DNA from: an archaeon
Lineage (GTDB): Archaea > Thermoproteota > Nitrososphaeria > Nitrososphaerales > Gagatemarchaeaceae
Assembly: GCA_021851265.1 (NCBI GenBank)
Contig: JAJZIG010000003.1
Span: forward strand, 1 to 40,331
Length of the DNA: 40,331 bases
Reading direction: 5' to 3'
Shown one piece after another: positions 14,767-23,026 of the stretch. The position numbers and the translations under genes are program-made. Position 1 is the stretch's first letter. The number at the start of each line of letters is the position of its first letter. The notes under the pieces are model-generated. The model had not been told where the DNA came from. It did no database searches and saw only the letters and a list, made by a program, of their open reading frames with translations.

Positions 14767-14834
14767 AACATTGAACTGGGCTGAGCACTTTCGCGCCACT
14801 CTCCCATTCAAAGAGTTCTGTCAGCGAACTTCCC

Positions 14835-14842
14835 GTTAAATT
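14835..14842 (+). promoter_or_regulatory. Box A for RecA-like/PolB gene group
   Basis: GTTAAATT is centred about 29 bases before ATG 14867, so the first gene of the group is probably leaderless. Confidence 0.6.
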
Positions 14843-14866: not shown

Positions 14867-15754
14867 ATGGTGAGACTACACTATCTCTATGAGCAGAGGA
14901 CCGACGGGAAGGAGAAGTCTGTCTATTACTGCTCCGGCTGCAATTGCGTCATGAAACTCGGCGGGGGTTCCTCTATCGGCAACGTCGTGCATCCCCATGC
15001 CCGCTCCTGCACTAATCGTGACTGCCCGCTCGAAAATCCCGAACATATGTTCGCCCCAAGGTCGGAGGCGCTGTTCCGGCCAGCTTCTTCAATCCCCCAT
15101 TTCACTCTGGGATTTCCCCCATTGGACTCGCTCCTAAGACCCCTATCTGAAAAGCGCCTCTTGGTATTTAGTGGAGACCAATCTTCAATCGTGGCAGAAC
15201 TGGCGGCGTTCAGGGCTCAACTTCCAGTCGAATCGGGCGGCCTCAATTCTGCGGTCGTGTTCATAGACGGAGGCAACCGCTCCGACCCATACCTCCTTTC
15301 GTCCTTCGCCAGGCAGAGAGGGGTCGGGCCCCGCGCCACGATGAAACGAGTCGCCTCTTGTCGTGTCTTTACACTCTATCAACTGACCGAGCTGGTTTCA
15401 GAGCACCTGGCATGCGCCGCGGAGGATTACGGGGCGAGGTTGGTGATAATCTCTGACATCCTCGGCACTTTCAACGAGCCGGAACTGGACGAGAGGGAAG
15501 CGAGGCGCGTCTTGGATGCCATCTATGAGCGCATAGAGGGACTGACAGAGTGTTCCCTTGTCATCGTGACCCTACCATCGCCCAACAAATATGATGAGCT
15601 GGTCATGCGGTGGGCCGACACCATGATTTCTCTTTCGCATAGCAGGGACGGCGCCAAAGCAGAACGCCTCAGCCGAAACAGTCTGGCTTCCGAGGTCATC
15701 ACGTTCAAGCCTAATCTACTACTGAACGCTACTGGAATCGAGGTTCCGTTCTGA
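14867..15754 (+). CDS. RecA/RadA-like ATPase-fold protein with degenerate Walker A
   Basis: A 295-residue protein with an N-terminal Cys cluster (C22, C25, C27, C48, C53; YYCSGCNCV and RSCTNRDCP) that may bind zinc, as in RadA/Sms-like proteins. A RecA/KaiC-like core follows: FTLGFPPLDSLL, then FSGDQSSIVAEL (about 101-112) where the P-loop GxxGxGKT should be. The Lys is missing. Next come AVVFIDGGNRSDP, like the strand after Walker A in RadA, and LVIISDILGTFNEPE in the Walker B position. It probably cannot bind or hydrolyse ATP normally. It overlaps the next small gene by one base (TGATG) and precedes PolB. A role as a DNA-binding or polymerase accessory protein is inferred from context. Confidence 0.75.
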   Translation: MVRLHYLYEQRTDGKEKSVYYCSGCNCVMKLGGGSSIGNVVHPHARSCTNRDCPLENPEHMFAPRSEALFRPASSIPHFTLGFPPLDSLLRPLSEKRLLVFSGDQSSIVAELAAFRAQLPVESGGLNSAVVFIDGGNRSDPYLLSSFARQRGVGPRATMKRVASCRVFTLYQLTELVSEHLACAAEDYGARLVIISDILGTFNEPELDEREARRVLDAIYERIEGLTECSLVIVTLPSPNKYDELVMRWADTMISLSHSRDGAKAERLSRNSLASEVITFKPNLLLNATGIEVPF

Positions 15755-15924
15755 TGGGTCGCACTATCTCTTCGTTCAGGGTAACCGAAGCCGAAGTCCA
15801 AGAGGCCGCCAGATGGAAGGCGTTCAGAAGGTCCTTCGGAAGAGAGATAGGGAAGTCTTTGATGACCCGCTACGCTCACAAGGCTCTACATATCCGCCTC
15901 TTCCACTACCATCAGGTCGTTTAG
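15754..15924 (+). CDS. Small basic protein, 56 aa, coupled to RecA-like gene
   Basis: A short gene not reaching usual size cut-offs. ATG at 15754 overlaps the upstream TGA as TGATG, the classic sign of translational coupling; it ends with TAG at 15922-15924. The protein is basic and aromatic: SFRVTEAEVQEAARWKAFRR, then SFGREIGKSL and AHKALHIRLFHYHQVV. An amphipathic helix with many Arg/Lys and a His-rich end suits contact with DNA or another protein. No named family is recognised. Its position between a RecA-like gene and PolB suggests a small polymerase accessory subunit, analogous in size to the PolB-binding proteins known from Sulfolobus. Homology to those is not shown. Confidence 0.6.
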   Translation: MGRTISSFRVTEAEVQEAARWKAFRRSFGREIGKSLMTRYAHKALHIRLFHYHQVV

Positions 15925-16193
15925 GTTCGAAGGCATGACAATGGCGATAATTTCCAATCACCTCAGGCTCCTCGAGCGGCCCATCAAGACATCGAACGCG
16001 GGCCGAGGGGAGGCGAAGTGACCTTAAGTCATCGAGGCGCTTGACAGTTGGTACTGTTTCGTGAATGTGTTCCCCGTCGAAGACAGGCTTGTTTCGCGCA
16101 GATGATCCCGACGTGCTACGACTACTCCCAAGCGGTATGCACTAGGGACGCTCTTTCCCGACGAGGCTCTCATCACAAAGTCGAGGGTCGGAA
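15925..16193. other. Gap before PolB, no clear gene
   Basis: Contains a 28-codon frame (ATG at 15936 to the TGA ending at 16021, MTMAIISNHLRLLERP...) that could be a leader peptide or chance. On the minus strand a frame from inside polB runs to about 16024 with some protein-like character, but no start of its own. No good box A is seen directly before the PolB GTG. Confidence 0.35.
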
Positions 16194-18449
16194 GTGACGC
16201 GCGGTTGGATATTCGACCTCTATCCAGGCGGCCCCGGCGAAATGGTCGTCTGGCTGAAGACTGAGAACGGCGAGGCAGTGAGGCTGACAGACCGCTGGTC
16301 TCCATCACTGTTCGTAGGGTCGAACTCCGCGTCAGATTTCGCCGTTCCAGTCCACACACTCCGTGACGAGTTCTTGTGGACCAGGGTGGTCAGGAAGCGC
16401 GAAACGGTGACCAATTACGGGTGGTCCGACGTGCTCGAAGCGAAGCTCACCGACGCCAGGAACGCCCAGCGGGTGGCCGAGCGGATAGAACGGTTGGGTC
16501 CTTTCGGGACGTTCAGAATCTACAACGTCGACGTCCCTCCGGACCAAGGTTACCTCTACGAGAATGATCTTTTCCCCCTCGCATTCTGCAATGTAATGAG
16601 CGATGGGGGGCGGCTCCGCTGGACCATCGAAGACGACGTCTGGGCCTACGACTATGCCATCCCAACGTTAAGGACAGCCAGACTCGACGTGCAGGTGGCG
16701 AAGAAGGGGAGGCTGCCGAAGCCCACGGATCAGATAGAATCGTTCACGCTAGAGTACGACGGCGAGTCTGTGGCCATCGTCGGCCAGAGCGAAACAGACA
16801 AGCTGTTCAGGCTGGCAGAGGTTGTCCACGAGGCTGACCCGGATGTCATCCTGACCAACGACGGGGACACCTTCCTCTTCCCCTACCTCATCAGGCGCAC
16901 CGAGGCCAACAGCGTCAGGCTGTCTCTCGACAGGGACGGCGCCCCCCTGACGCTCCCGTCGAAGCCAGGCACTTCCTATTTCAGCTATGGACAGGTACGC
17001 TACAAGCCCACCGCGACGAAACTCCGCGGCCGCGTGCACATTGATGTCGACGCCTCATTCACCTACTCTGAAGGAGGATTCGACGCACTCTTCGAGCTGA
17101 GCAGGGTCTGCCGCATGCCTCTCCACACATCCAGCAGGGCCAGCATAGGCAAAGCCCTGTCCAGCCTCCAGTTCTATCACGCGCTCAAGGCGGACCTTCT
17201 GGTTCCATGGAAGCCTACCCTGGCGGAGCGCTTCAAGGACAGGAATGAACTGATGACGGCCGACCGAGGAGGCCTCATCTTCGAGCAGAGGGTCGGGGCA
17301 TATGAGGGGGTCGGGGAGCTGGACTTCTCTGCCCTCTACCCGAACATCATGTACAGGAAGAACATCTCTGCCGAGACCGTCAGGTGCTCCTGCTGCCCCG
17401 ACTCCGATAACCGCGTGCCTGAGCTTGGGTGGAATACATGCAGGCAAGAGGGTTTGGTCCCCCGCTCCATCAGGATCATAGTTGAGAAGAGGCTCCACTA
17501 CAAGGAGATTAAAGAGAAGGTGGTCGACGACTCGCTCCGAGACCACTACGACGCCAGGCAGGCGGCCCTCAAATGGCTGGGGGTGACGACGTTCGGATAC
17601 CTGGGTTTCAACAACGCGAAGTTTGGCCGCATCGACGCCCACATCGCAGTTTGCGCCTGGGACCGGAAGGTCATAACCGACGCCGCCAGGGTGGCCGAAG
17701 CCAGCGGCTTCGTGGTCGTGCATGGCATCGTGGATTCTCTCTGGCTCTGGAAAGAGGGGGCGGAGAAGGGCGACTATCTCGGACTCAAGGCAAAACTGGA
17801 AGCAAAGACTGGGTTCGCCATGTCATTCGAAGGCATCTACAAGTGGGTGGCCTTCCTACCATCGAAGTCGGAGCCGGGGCTACCGGCACTCAATCGATAC
17901 TTCGGAGCCTTCGAAGATGGCCGCTTGAAGGTGAGGGGGATTGAAGCGCGCCGCCATGATACGCCGCCGGCTTTCGTGGTATGTCAGAAAGCCATCCTGG
18001 ACATCCTGGCCGAAGCAGGTACTGTAGCGGAGGCGAAAGCCAGGGTCCCAGAGTGTATCGAGGTCTTCCTCAGATACGCGGGGGCGCTCGAGCGGCACGA
18101 AATCCCTGCCTCCGAACTGACCTTTTCGACGAACCTCTCGAAGGCGCCAGAAGAGTACGCCACCGCGACAGTGCAGCACGCCGCAGTAAAGCAACTGGTG
18201 GACGAAGGGGCCGATTTGCACGCTGGTGAAAGGATACACTATGTTATCATGGACTACCTGGGTAGAGGCTCGAAACGGGTGACGCCGCTCGACATGATTG
18301 AGAACCAAAGCCGTTACGACTCGGACCGCTACGTCAGGCTACTGGCTGAGACATGCTCCTCTGTTCTCGAGCCCTTCGACCCAGGATGCGCCGCGGAGGG
18401 CCTGATGGCGCGCTACGAAGCGCGGAGGAGCAGGGCTCTCACCAGCTGA
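16194..18449 (+). CDS. polB: Divergent family B DNA polymerase
   Basis: DNA-dependent DNA polymerase of family B, 751 residues. The N-terminal region and exonuclease domain cover about 1-330 and the polymerase domain about 350-690. Motif A is intact (ELDFSALYPNIM, Asp377). Motif B reads QAALKWLGVTTFGYLG (Lys460), with VTT where NS-x is usual. Motif C reads HGIVDSLWL: Asp514 remains, but the first Asp of DTD is Val or Ile. In the exonuclease domain, motif I (normally DIE) reads LDVQV: Asp165 is kept but the Glu is Gln167. Exo II has TNDGDTFLFPYL (Asp225). A Cys cluster (C398, C400, C401, C416) follows motif A. The protein is shorter than most replicative PolBs and probably has weak or no proofreading. 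The GTG start at 16194 precedes the family-like GWIFDLYP. Confidence 0.92.
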   Translation: MTRGWIFDLYPGGPGEMVVWLKTENGEAVRLTDRWSPSLFVGSNSASDFAVPVHTLRDEFLWTRVVRKRETVTNYGWSDVLEAKLTDARNAQRVAERIERLGPFGTFRIYNVDVPPDQGYLYENDLFPLAFCNVMSDGGRLRWTIEDDVWAYDYAIPTLRTARLDVQVAKKGRLPKPTDQIESFTLEYDGESVAIVGQSETDKLFRLAEVVHEADPDVILTNDGDTFLFPYLIRRTEANSVRLSLDRDGAPLTLPSKPGTSYFSYGQVRYKPTATKLRGRVHIDVDASFTYSEGGFDALFELSRVCRMPLHTSSRASIGKALSSLQFYHALKADLLVPWKPTLAERFKDRNELMTADRGGLIFEQRVGAYEGVGELDFSALYPNIMYRKNISAETVRCSCCPDSDNRVPELGWNTCRQEGLVPRSIRIIVEKRLHYKEIKEKVVDDSLRDHYDARQAALKWLGVTTFGYLGFNNAKFGRIDAHIAVCAWDRKVITDAARVAEASGFVVVHGIVDSLWLWKEGAEKGDYLGLKAKLEAKTGFAMSFEGIYKWVAFLPSKSEPGLPALNRYFGAFEDGRLKVRGIEARRHDTPPAFVVCQKAILDILAEAGTVAEAKARVPECIEVFLRYAGALERHEIPASELTFSTNLSKAPEEYATATVQHAAVKQLVDEGADLHAGERIHYVIMDYLGRGSKRVTPLDMIENQSRYDSDRYVRLLAETCSSVLEPFDPGCAAEGLMARYEARRSRALTS

Positions 18450-19561: not shown

Positions 19562-22500
19562 ATGTCGTTTTCTGCCGATTTCGCCTGGCAACGTGTGAAG
19601 ACCCTGGCTCCTTTCCCAAGCCGCCTCGAGCCCTACTACCGCGACATATTGTCTCAGTACGAGGCCGCCCACATTCTAGCTTCCACGGCAAGGATGAAAG
19701 GATACGACCCTACCAGCATCGTCGAGAGCAAGACGGTATTCGATCTGGCTGACAGGGTAAACCAAATGCTCCGGCTGGACCAGTTCGAAGGACTGGTCGA
19801 CAGGCTCAGGGAGCTCCTTCACAGCACCTCGAAAGAGCGTGCAGCACTGACGATTTCTCAGGAGATTGCTCTGGGCAAATTCGGAGCGCTCGAGAGGCAC
19901 GAAGCCCTGAGCTACGGGGTCAGAGCAGGGCTCGCTGTCATGACAGACGGAGTCACCGTGGCTCCACTAGAAGGGATATCTGGCGTCACGATAAAACAGA
20001 ACGACGACAACACCGATTATGTGTCTGTCTCTTACGCAGGGCCAATGCGCTCGGCGGGGGGGACAGAGGCGGCGTTCTCTCTGGTGATAGCGGACGTGAC
20101 AGCCAAGAAGCTGGGTCTGAGCAATTACAGGGCCCGCCAGGAGGAGATCGACCGCTTCGCGGAGGAGCTGAGGATCTACGAGCGCGACGTGACCAACTTC
20201 CAGTACAAGGTGACTGACGACGACATCCGCCGAGCGATATCGAATCTCCCAGTCGAGATCGATGGAATTGAGACAGATCCCATCGAAGTGGTAGTCCACA
20301 GGAACCTCAAGCGGGTGGCCACAGACAGACTCAGGGGGGGCGCCCTTAGAGTCCTCAACGACGGTGTGATAGGCAGGGCCCACAAACTATCGAAGAAACT
20401 CGCCAGCTTGAACATATCCGGGTGGGACTTCCTCGCTCAGCTGAAAGGAGGGACCCAGCAGACGACGAACGAGACTGAAAAGGCCGGCGCCCACTTTGAA
20501 GAGGTCATTTCGGGGAGGGCAGTGCTTTCAATGCCGAGGAGCAAGGGAGGCTTCAGGCTCCGCTATGGACGGTCGATAAACACTGGCCTCTCAACCATCG
20601 GGATACACCCGGCGGTCGCAACACTCCTCGATTTCCCGGTAGTAGCCGGGACCCAGGTGAAGGTGGACATGCCGGGAAAGGCGGCCACCATCGCTTTCGT
20701 CGACTCCATCGAAGGGCCCACAATCTCAACGAAGGACGGCAGAGTCCTGAGGGTATCGACTGTGTCGCAGGCGGAAGAGGTGCGCGACGCCATGTCGAAG
20801 ATAATCGACTTGGGAGACGTCTTGATAACCTATGGCGACTTTTTGGAAAGTAACAAAGCACTACAGCCATCGCCATATGTCTCCGAGTGGTGGGCACAGG
20901 ACCTCGGGCGCTTGATGGCTGGGGTTCCAGGTGCCATGGAGGCGCTGGCCTCGGCAGGGGTAGGCGGCGACAGGGCACGAGAGCTGGCCTCCTCTCCGAC
21001 CACCGCCCCGACAGCTGCAGAGGCTATAGCAATCTCACATGCAATCGGCATCCCACTGCACCCATCGCATACCCCACGCTTCGACAGGGTGGGGTCTGCC
21101 GACCTAGTCGAGCTACGGCAGAGCGCGCGACTCGAAGGGAGGGAAGTGGTCATCGGTGCCGCCGTCCCACGCGTCCGCTGGATACTGAATACCTGCCTCA
21201 TTGAACACCGGACCGAGGGTGATGTGGCAATCGTCGGCGGCGAGTCCGCAGTCATCCTCCGCGCTCTTCTGCGTCTCGATGAGCCGGGGTCCGTAGTCTC
21301 TCCCGACGCGCCTGACTACATCAGGAGTCTCTCGGGGATTCAACTGGGACGGCAGAGCACCACCACCATTGGCGTCAGGGTAGGGAGGCCAGAGAAGGCA
21401 ATGGTGAGGAGGATGAAACCTCCTGTCCACGTGTTGTTCCCCGTAGGCTACGGAGGTGGAGCGATGAGGGACGTCTTCTCAGCCGCCAGGGCGGGGAGAG
21501 CTGAGATAGAGGTCATCAACCTATACTGCAATAGGTGCAACCAGAGGCGGCTCACTCCAAAATGCGAGGTCTGCGGCGAGGATACGGCGCCATTCATGGC
21601 TTGCCCCCGGTGCGGCGCTACAACCCACGACACTGTATGCCCCAACTGCAAAGCGAAGACCCTTCCATACTCCAAGATGGACTTCGACTTCAAGTCGCGG
21701 TTGGAGGCGATAAGAGCGAAGATCCCGCACTCTTCATCCAAACCAGTGAAGGGCGTGAGGGGCCTGACGAGCGTCTCCAAGGTCCCTGAAGCCATAGAAA
21801 AGGGGATCATCAGGAGTAGGCATAACACCTTCGTCTACAAGGATGGTACGCTGAGGATCGACGCCACCAACGAGCCTCTGACTCACTTCAGGCCGCGTGA
21901 TGTAAAAGGCGATCTCCAAACCTTGGTTCGCCTCGGCTACACTCACGACCACAAGGGAGTTCCCCTCAAATCCGACGACCAAGTGCTGGAGCTCAAACCC
22001 CAGGACATCATAGTCCCCGCGGACATCAGCAGTGATTTGGTCAAGATGGCCCAATGCATCGACGACGAGCTTCAGAACCTCTACGGCCTAGAGCCGTTCT
22101 ACAACGTAGCAGGGCCTGACGACCTGCTGGGCAAGCTGGTGATAGGGCTCGCGCCCCACACCTCAGTGGGGGTAGCTGGACGGATAGTGGGATTCTCAGC
22201 GACAGAGGTCTGCCTTGCAAATCCCTATTGGCACTCGGCGAAGAGGCGGGACTGCGACGGCGACGGAGACTCCATACTCATGCTGGTCGACGCACTGCTG
22301 AACTTCTCACTACAGTACGTCCCGGCGCAGATAGGCGGCTACATGGACACCCCGCTCCTGATACAACCAGTGATCCTGCCGGCGGAGGTCGACGAGCAGG
22401 CGCACAACTTCGACGTGGCGGAGACCTACCCGCTTGAATTCTATGAGAAGACCCTTACCACCCCGCCTGCGGCATCCGTGGCCTCGTTGATTGAGCACAT

Positions 22501-23026
22501 CGGATCCCGCCTGGAAAGCGAAACCCAGTTCTATGGCTATGGATTCACACATCCGACAAGCGCCATCACGATAAAGCGTTCCAGAGCATCATACTCGACA
22601 TTGAGAACACTCAACGAGAAGATTGCGAAGCAGATTGAAGTGGCATCCCTGGTAGAAGCGGTGTCTACCCGTGACGTGGTCGAATCCATCATCAAAACAC
22701 ATCTTATCAGGGACATCATGGGAAACGCGAAAAAGTACGCAACCCAGGCGTTCAAATGCAAGGGCTGCGGCCTAACGCTCCGGCGACCTCCGCTCTCGTC
22801 CAAATGCCCCAGTTGCGGCGGCGAAATCAGGGGGACCTTGACCAGAGCTTCTGTGGAGAAGTATCTTCAGATTGCCCAGCGCCTCGCCCGAGAGTACGAC
22901 GTCGATTCGTACCTGAGGAACAGGCTTGATATGCTTCAGAGAGAGTTGGACCAGCTCTTCCAGGGACCGAGGAAGGCCGACCAGCTGGAGCTGACAGATT
23001 TCTTGAAGCCTGCACTAATCGAATGA
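19562..23026 (+). CDS. polC: DNA polymerase D large (catalytic) subunit DP2
   Basis: Catalytic subunit of the archaeal family D replicative polymerase, acting with the small exonuclease subunit DP1, which is not in this window. The 1154 residues match intein-free DP2. Visible are the N-terminal ISVGIT-like region (SYAGPMRSAGGTEAAFSLVI), zinc modules CNRCNQRRLTPKCEVCGE and CPRCGATTHDTVCPNC, the catalytic Asp-rich loop AKRRDCDGDGDSIL near residue 900, and a C-terminal zinc module CKGCGL...CPSCGG, which usually binds DP1 or PCNA. No intein interrupts the catalytic loop. The ATG was chosen by promoter spacing. The end overlaps the convergent SHMT gene by 12 bases. Confidence 0.97.
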   Translation: MSFSADFAWQRVKTLAPFPSRLEPYYRDILSQYEAAHILASTARMKGYDPTSIVESKTVFDLADRVNQMLRLDQFEGLVDRLRELLHSTSKERAALTISQEIALGKFGALERHEALSYGVRAGLAVMTDGVTVAPLEGISGVTIKQNDDNTDYVSVSYAGPMRSAGGTEAAFSLVIADVTAKKLGLSNYRARQEEIDRFAEELRIYERDVTNFQYKVTDDDIRRAISNLPVEIDGIETDPIEVVVHRNLKRVATDRLRGGALRVLNDGVIGRAHKLSKKLASLNISGWDFLAQLKGGTQQTTNETEKAGAHFEEVISGRAVLSMPRSKGGFRLRYGRSINTGLSTIGIHPAVATLLDFPVVAGTQVKVDMPGKAATIAFVDSIEGPTISTKDGRVLRVSTVSQAEEVRDAMSKIIDLGDVLITYGDFLESNKALQPSPYVSEWWAQDLGRLMAGVPGAMEALASAGVGGDRARELASSPTTAPTAAEAIAISHAIGIPLHPSHTPRFDRVGSADLVELRQSARLEGREVVIGAAVPRVRWILNTCLIEHRTEGDVAIVGGESAVILRALLRLDEPGSVVSPDAPDYIRSLSGIQLGRQSTTTIGVRVGRPEKAMVRRMKPPVHVLFPVGYGGGAMRDVFSAARAGRAEIEVINLYCNRCNQRRLTPKCEVCGEDTAPFMACPRCGATTHDTVCPNCKAKTLPYSKMDFDFKSRLEAIRAKIPHSSSKPVKGVRGLTSVSKVPEAIEKGIIRSRHNTFVYKDGTLRIDATNEPLTHFRPRDVKGDLQTLVRLGYTHDHKGVPLKSDDQVLELKPQDIIVPADISSDLVKMAQCIDDELQNLYGLEPFYNVAGPDDLLGKLVIGLAPHTSVGVAGRIVGFSATEVCLANPYWHSAKRRDCDGDGDSILMLVDALLNFSLQYVPAQIGGYMDTPLLIQPVILPAEVDEQAHNFDVAETYPLEFYEKTLTTPPAASVASLIEHIGSRLESETQFYGYGFTHPTSAITIKRSRASYSTLRTLNEKIAKQIEVASLVEAVSTRDVVESIIKTHLIRDIMGNAKKYATQAFKCKGCGLTLRRPPLSSKCPSCGGEIRGTLTRASVEKYLQIAQRLAREYDVDSYLRNRLDMLQRELDQLFQGPRKADQLELTDFLKPALIE

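Follow-up and report, generated by a model that had tools for sequence, protein, structure and literature searches.

Does a locus that looks like a three-gene polymerase operon still encode the complete complex to which its genes belong? The question is raised by the operon of a B-family DNA polymerase, PolB2, in the first 40,331 nucleotides of contig JAJZIG010000003.1 from a Gagatemarchaeaceae archaeon (assembly GCA_021851265.1), a stretch referred to here as the window. Operons uniting PolB2, an inactivated RadA and the small helical protein arCOG07300 have been described before (PMC4104785). They were later named the PolB2 mutasome, with iRadA, PPB2 and PolB2 encoded in this order (PMC11791011). 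According to the latter study, PPB2 begins with an MGRT arm that has arginines at positions 3 and 9 and is a key element of the complex, PolB2 contains a D(K/R) motif, and in most PolB2 proteins the first aspartate of motif C is substituted. Some operons contain two PPB2 copies, only one of which has the MGRT, and pseudogenes are not mentioned in the main text. In the window, the small subunit of such a PolB2 mutasome has probably been lost, while the polymerase and iRadA appear to be still under selection. The operon type itself is published; what is new is that both PPB2 genes were lost more than once and PolB2 and iRadA were kept.

The window genome is a draft of 1.89 Mb in 212 contigs (90.8% complete). 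It was compared with 201 genomes of its order, with 31 genomes of its genus for the motif-pair scan, and most closely with the genomes G009, G029 and G025. The ancestral order iRadA-PPB2a-PPB2b-PolB2, all in one direction, is conserved in this Nitrososphaeria genus, and a PPB2 match lies directly upstream of 33 of the 34 PolB2 loci in the family sample, with a gap of 179-280 bases. The sole exception is an extra PolB2 without partners on contig C1 of G033, a genome that has the full set on C2. The sequence-only reading had proposed a mutasome-like unit of a degenerate RecA-like protein, a 56-residue protein and an altered PolB. The three plus-strand reading frames on which it was based are present (Table 1), and the genes co-occur in order among relatives, as that reading had suggested checking. 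The proposal is correct for the ancestral operon; in the window, however, the small gene is broken and the three-part unit is not intact.

Intact PPB2a genes of relatives form one open reading frame (ORF) of 84-93 residues. The homologous pieces in the window occupy three frames (15754-15843, 15819-15881 and 15878-16018), so the 56-residue ORF consists of the first frame and a frameshifted tail. Nucleotide alignment with the intact relatives identified an in-frame gain of six bases near 15783 and losses of one base each after 15826 and 15877. The gap between PPB2a and polB2 is occupied in relatives by a second PPB2-like ORF of ~80-86 residues, which lacks the MGRT and overlaps the start of polB2. 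In the window the seemingly empty stretch 16022-16193 is what is left of this paralogue: its start codon has disappeared together with 11-14 bases, one base is missing after ~16085, two after ~16151 and 51 after ~16175, and its TGA stop, which overlaps polB2, was lost by a change that is synonymous in polB2. In total, five frame-breaking indels fall within ~440 bases of PPB2a and PPB2b. The small ORF does start as predicted, its start codon overlapping the preceding stop as TGATG, and its N-terminus MGRTISSFR retains the MGRT arm with Arg3 and Arg9 of the published motif. It is nevertheless the front of a broken PPB2a. A complete novel protein of 56 residues was rejected, as homology to the 88-residue PPB2 of relatives runs on in two other frames to 16018, and the product would be at most a truncated PPB2 N-terminal arm. 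Programmed frameshifting is not favoured either, as it could not make good a missing start codon, a deletion of 51 bases and multiple indels that are unrelated to one another. A full PPB2 (~85-90 amino acids, MGRT arm, three helices) is intact in most relatives; the window holds frameshifted remnants only. Because of this the operon was classified as a PPB2-deficient derivative and not as a full member of the PolB2 mutasomes.

Table 1. Positions of the operon components and upstream elements in the window
Feature	Position	Strand	Description
CACTTTCG conserved upstream element	14786..14793	+	contains ANTTTC; 42 bases before TTAAAT
Box A-like GTTAAAT	14835..14841	+	putative operon promoter; 26-32 bases before the iRadA ATG; aligned and conserved in relatives
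iRadA	14867..15754	+	295 aa; RadA-like, no Walker A; N-terminal CxxC zinc-ribbon-like segment replaces the RadA helical domain
PPB2a pseudogene	15754..16021	+	arCOG07300-type with MGRT arm; the 56-aa ORF 15754-15924 is the first frame
PPB2b remnant	16022..16210	+	second PPB2 paralogue, no MGRT; ORF intact in relatives
PolB2	16194..18449	+	751 aa, GTG start; motif A DFSALYP, motif C HGIVDS, degenerate exonuclease, LDRD (D(K/R)) kept

The PPB2 genes of G025 are broken as well, by lesions that differ from those of the window (losses of one, one and two bases in PPB2a and of two bases in PPB2b), and those of G029 and G009 are intact. In the PolB2 tree, (G009,(window,(G029,G025))), supported at 97-100%, the intact G029 branches between the window and G025, so that the PPB2 pair must have been broken twice. 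A new type of unit, in which the basic 56-residue protein (N-terminal arm, first helix and new tail) replaces the full PPB2, is very improbable. Both lineages retain the TGATG coupling and the MGRT arm, which is described as the key contact, but the tails behind the frameshifts are unrelated between them, only five residues of the arm are left in G025, and the greater part of PPB2 is gone.

All five frame-breaking lesions of the window are located in the PPB2 region and none in the 3.1 kb of iRadA and PolB2 (random placement, P=2.8e-5); the same test gave P=3.6e-4 for G025. The clustering in the window reaches P=1e-7 once ~10.6 kb of unbroken, fully aligned syntenic genes are added. Both iRadA and PolB2 are open in the window, G025, G029 and G009. 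At sites that are otherwise invariant, the window changes 0 of 56 positions in iRadA and 6 of 267 in PolB2 (0-9 in the others). In PPB2a it alters 5 of the 36 positions invariant among 13 intact genus sequences, which themselves alter 0-2 in a leave-one-out comparison (P=2.6e-4). The ratio of nonsynonymous to synonymous substitutions (dN/dS) between G029 and G025 amounts to 0.87 for PPB2a, 0.28 for iRadA and 0.22 for PolB2.

Several observations weigh against a loss of PPB2 from an otherwise maintained operon, and they bear on three alternatives, taken here in their order of weight: early decay of the whole operon, supply of PPB2 in trans, and assembly error. Under early decay, PPB2 would have broken first by chance in an operon whose PolB2 and iRadA are useless and so far merely lesion-free. 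The dN/dS of the window PPB2a is 0.21-0.47 (0.36 against G029, 0.21 against G009), a mildly raised value that fits a recent loss; PPB2 may have been lost late on the window branch, perhaps recently, and PolB2 may follow. In the PolB2 tree, the branch leading to G025 has twice the length of the G029 branch (0.043 vs 0.02), and PolB2 operons are patchy, with many genus members lacking one. However, if iRadA and PolB2 had gathered lesions as densely as the PPB2 region, they should contain ~36 frame-breaking ones, and none was seen. The changes at invariant sites of both genes are within the normal range and the same pattern arose twice, all of which makes early decay unlikely.

An unlinked PPB2 gene could also complete the complex. 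Other families of the order do have such genes, with up to ~15 matches per genome, and G025 has a PPB2b-like match without an MGRT arm on another contig (C26, E=5e-7). As the window genome is an incomplete draft in many contigs, an unlinked PPB2 could sit in its missing part. In the 90.8% covered, however, no other MGRT-bearing PPB2 was found, the only further match (E=0.01) being located inside a 302-residue frame, and supply in trans is considered quite improbable. Marginally less probable still is that the operon is an ordinary intact PolB2 mutasome with assembly or consensus errors in PPB2. The indels were taken from assembled sequence, metagenome assemblies are involved, and the frame-corrected PPB2 protein is still recognisable. 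Against this, two separate assemblies both show the lesions concentrated in the pair of PPB2 genes, and ~10 kb of adjacent genes have none. Moreover, changes of 51, 11 to 14 and 6 bases, lost start and stop codons and raised substitution at invariant residues are not explained by base-calling errors. Overall, a PolB2 mutasome deprived of PPB2, with constraint remaining on its other two components, stays the preferred explanation.

The polymerase itself matches the domains PF00136 (E=1.5e-26) and PF03104 (E=2.3e-5) and, end to end over 731 residues, its best NCBIfam model, of the PRK05761 type (9.8e-113). Its orthologues within the genus are 58-86% identical. The alterations that had been noted in motif C and the exonuclease were confirmed, but they are shared across the lineage: the window PolB2 and 26 aligned relatives have decayed exonuclease motifs and, where YGDTDS would be canonical, HGIVDS. 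Since every aligned PolB2 of the lineage has the first aspartate of motif C replaced, such a change is normal for this polymerase type, and a special mutation of the window gene was rejected. The enzyme is not the ordinary replicative PolB, a possibility the sequence-only reading had wished to see checked, because a replicative-type PolB is encoded separately on contig C19 (1359-residue frame) and a family D polymerase (PolD) at 19562-23026. PolB2 is not the only candidate translesion polymerase of the genome, since two Y-family polymerase genes with near-equal scores are present (G000:C17:34062-34514 and G000:C38:1525-1977) and a third is located on C190. An insertion of ~500 residues at motif B, after LKWLGVT, was observed in the PolB2 of G029, G025 (C10/C13), G028 (C33), G035, G031 and G171. 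Domains for intein splicing (E=1e-10) and of the LAGLIDADG type (E=1.8e-8) were detected in the G029 insertion (L046:1802-5641). The window PolB2 is free of this intein-like insertion; an intein in the non-replicative polymerase PolB2 is noteworthy.

The first protein had been described as RadA-like without a Walker A lysine, and this holds: it matches Pfam Rad51 (E=1.7e-5) and has FSGDQSSIVAE instead of GxxxxGK[TS]. The suggested alignment to RadA gave a match as well, a profile of seven iRadA sequences detecting solved RadA chains at E=1.9e-11, beginning at the RadA core domain. Relatives at the same place are 45-78% identical. The N-terminus (14882-15028) contains a zinc-ribbon-like segment of ~60 residues with the pattern CxxC...C...C, in which Cys22, Cys25 and Cys48 are aligned in all seven sequences. 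The word 'zinc' is absent from the main text of the mutasome paper (PMC11791011). A structure prediction for iRadA was of low confidence (pLDDT 52, four sequences only) and was not used.

The box A that had been noticed before the operon is conserved in relatives; all genus loci with enough upstream sequence carry a GTTAAAT-like box ~30 bases before the start codon. A second element, CACTTTCG, is found ~40-55 bases further upstream in genus loci. It lies ahead of iRadA at the window locus and at 13 of 17 other loci checked, including the non-syntenic loci G028b and G033. The pattern CACTTTCGN{35,55}TTAAAT had 23 matches in the genus sample, 15 of them at iRadA, and none with the reversed control. 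Given this conservation, which extends to the non-syntenic second cluster G028b, CACTTTCG is likely a regulatory site. Within it lies ANTTTC, a hexamer to which the Saccharolobus islandicus damage-response regulator Orc1-2 binds (PMC9738581); the match comprises five fixed bases only and is no proof of regulator identity. A wider regulon is unsupported: the window genome has a single further match, ahead of an ORF of 72 aa for which no Pfam family passed the cut-off, and further genus matches precede unrelated genes.

Within the order, PolB2 relatives were detected in 106 of the 201 genomes at E<=1e-40, the weakest of these being PolB of other types; 103 genomes gave matches to the PPB2 profile. 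The added PolB2 copy of G033 (G033:C1:256000-272000, L051) is 61% identical to the window PolB2 and has no adjoining iRadA or PPB2. Some genomes of family f8 (e.g. G165, G192 and G196) contain up to ~15 PPB2-profile matches on contigs away from PolB2, some in frames of 180-220 residues, which suggests an expanded PPB2 family with other roles. Downstream of the window operon, past PNPOx-like and NUDIX genes, the frame at 19562-23026 encodes the PolD large subunit (DP2). G009, G029 and G025 share this gene neighbourhood. A horizontally moved locus was rejected for the close relatives, which have the flanking genes and a tRNA-Leu in common.

In bacteria, the ImuA-ImuB-DnaE2 cassette encodes a RecA-superfamily protein without recombinase function together with a specialised polymerase. 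The sequence-only reading had used it for comparison, but it is an analogue only and the wrong comparator. The window operon contains no C-family DnaE2 or Y-family ImuB, the Y-family genes being located on other contigs, its RecA-like partner is RadA/Rad51-like and its polymerase belongs to family B. The archaeal PolB2 mutasome fits: gene order, orientation and overlaps are alike, as are the RadA homologue without ATPase residues, the PolB2 with a replaced first motif C aspartate and degenerate exonuclease, and the duplicated PPB2 with the MGRT in one copy. The difference is that both PPB2 genes are broken in the window and, independently, in G025. The PolB2 of Sulfolobus islandicus (Dpo2) is an active, proofreading-deficient translesion extender (PMC8764526), and damage-induced mutagenesis in Sulfolobus is reported to depend on PolB2 (PMC7390963, cited in PMC8764526). 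Like the window protein, Dpo2 is changed at the conserved tyrosine and first aspartate of the PolC motif and lacks working proofreading motifs. It differs in length, as the window PolB2 has 751 residues with an exonuclease-domain remnant (PF03104), compared to 540-582 residues in Sulfolobales. Purified Dpo2 alone extends mismatches and lesions, and therefore a PolB2 free of PPB2 can work in vitro.

By analogy with other archaea, the operon would most likely be induced by damage and regulated from one promoter. PolB2, which would not proofread, would then extend primer ends beyond lesions, and iRadA would dock on it as RadA subunits dock on each other. A normal PPB2 cannot come from the window operon. 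The pair would keep a selected function after PPB2 loss, in a reduced or altered architecture, and as both proteins stayed constrained we infer that it works without PPB2. Tentatively, this function may lie in damage tolerance, and the repeated loss could mean that PPB2 lies outside the mutasome core and has an accessory role, perhaps in regulating or restraining it.

Caution is called for in reading loci where TGATG couples a short ORF to the gene before it, because the ORF may be all that remains of a disrupted gene. The evidence for the PolB2 mutasome as a complex consists solely of genome context, co-induction and predicted structures, and the role of PPB2 as the key to its assembly is a model-based proposal. 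Two lineages with broken PPB2 genes and constrained PolB2 and iRadA make this proposal testable. Thus nature may already have run the test of whether PPB2 is necessary.

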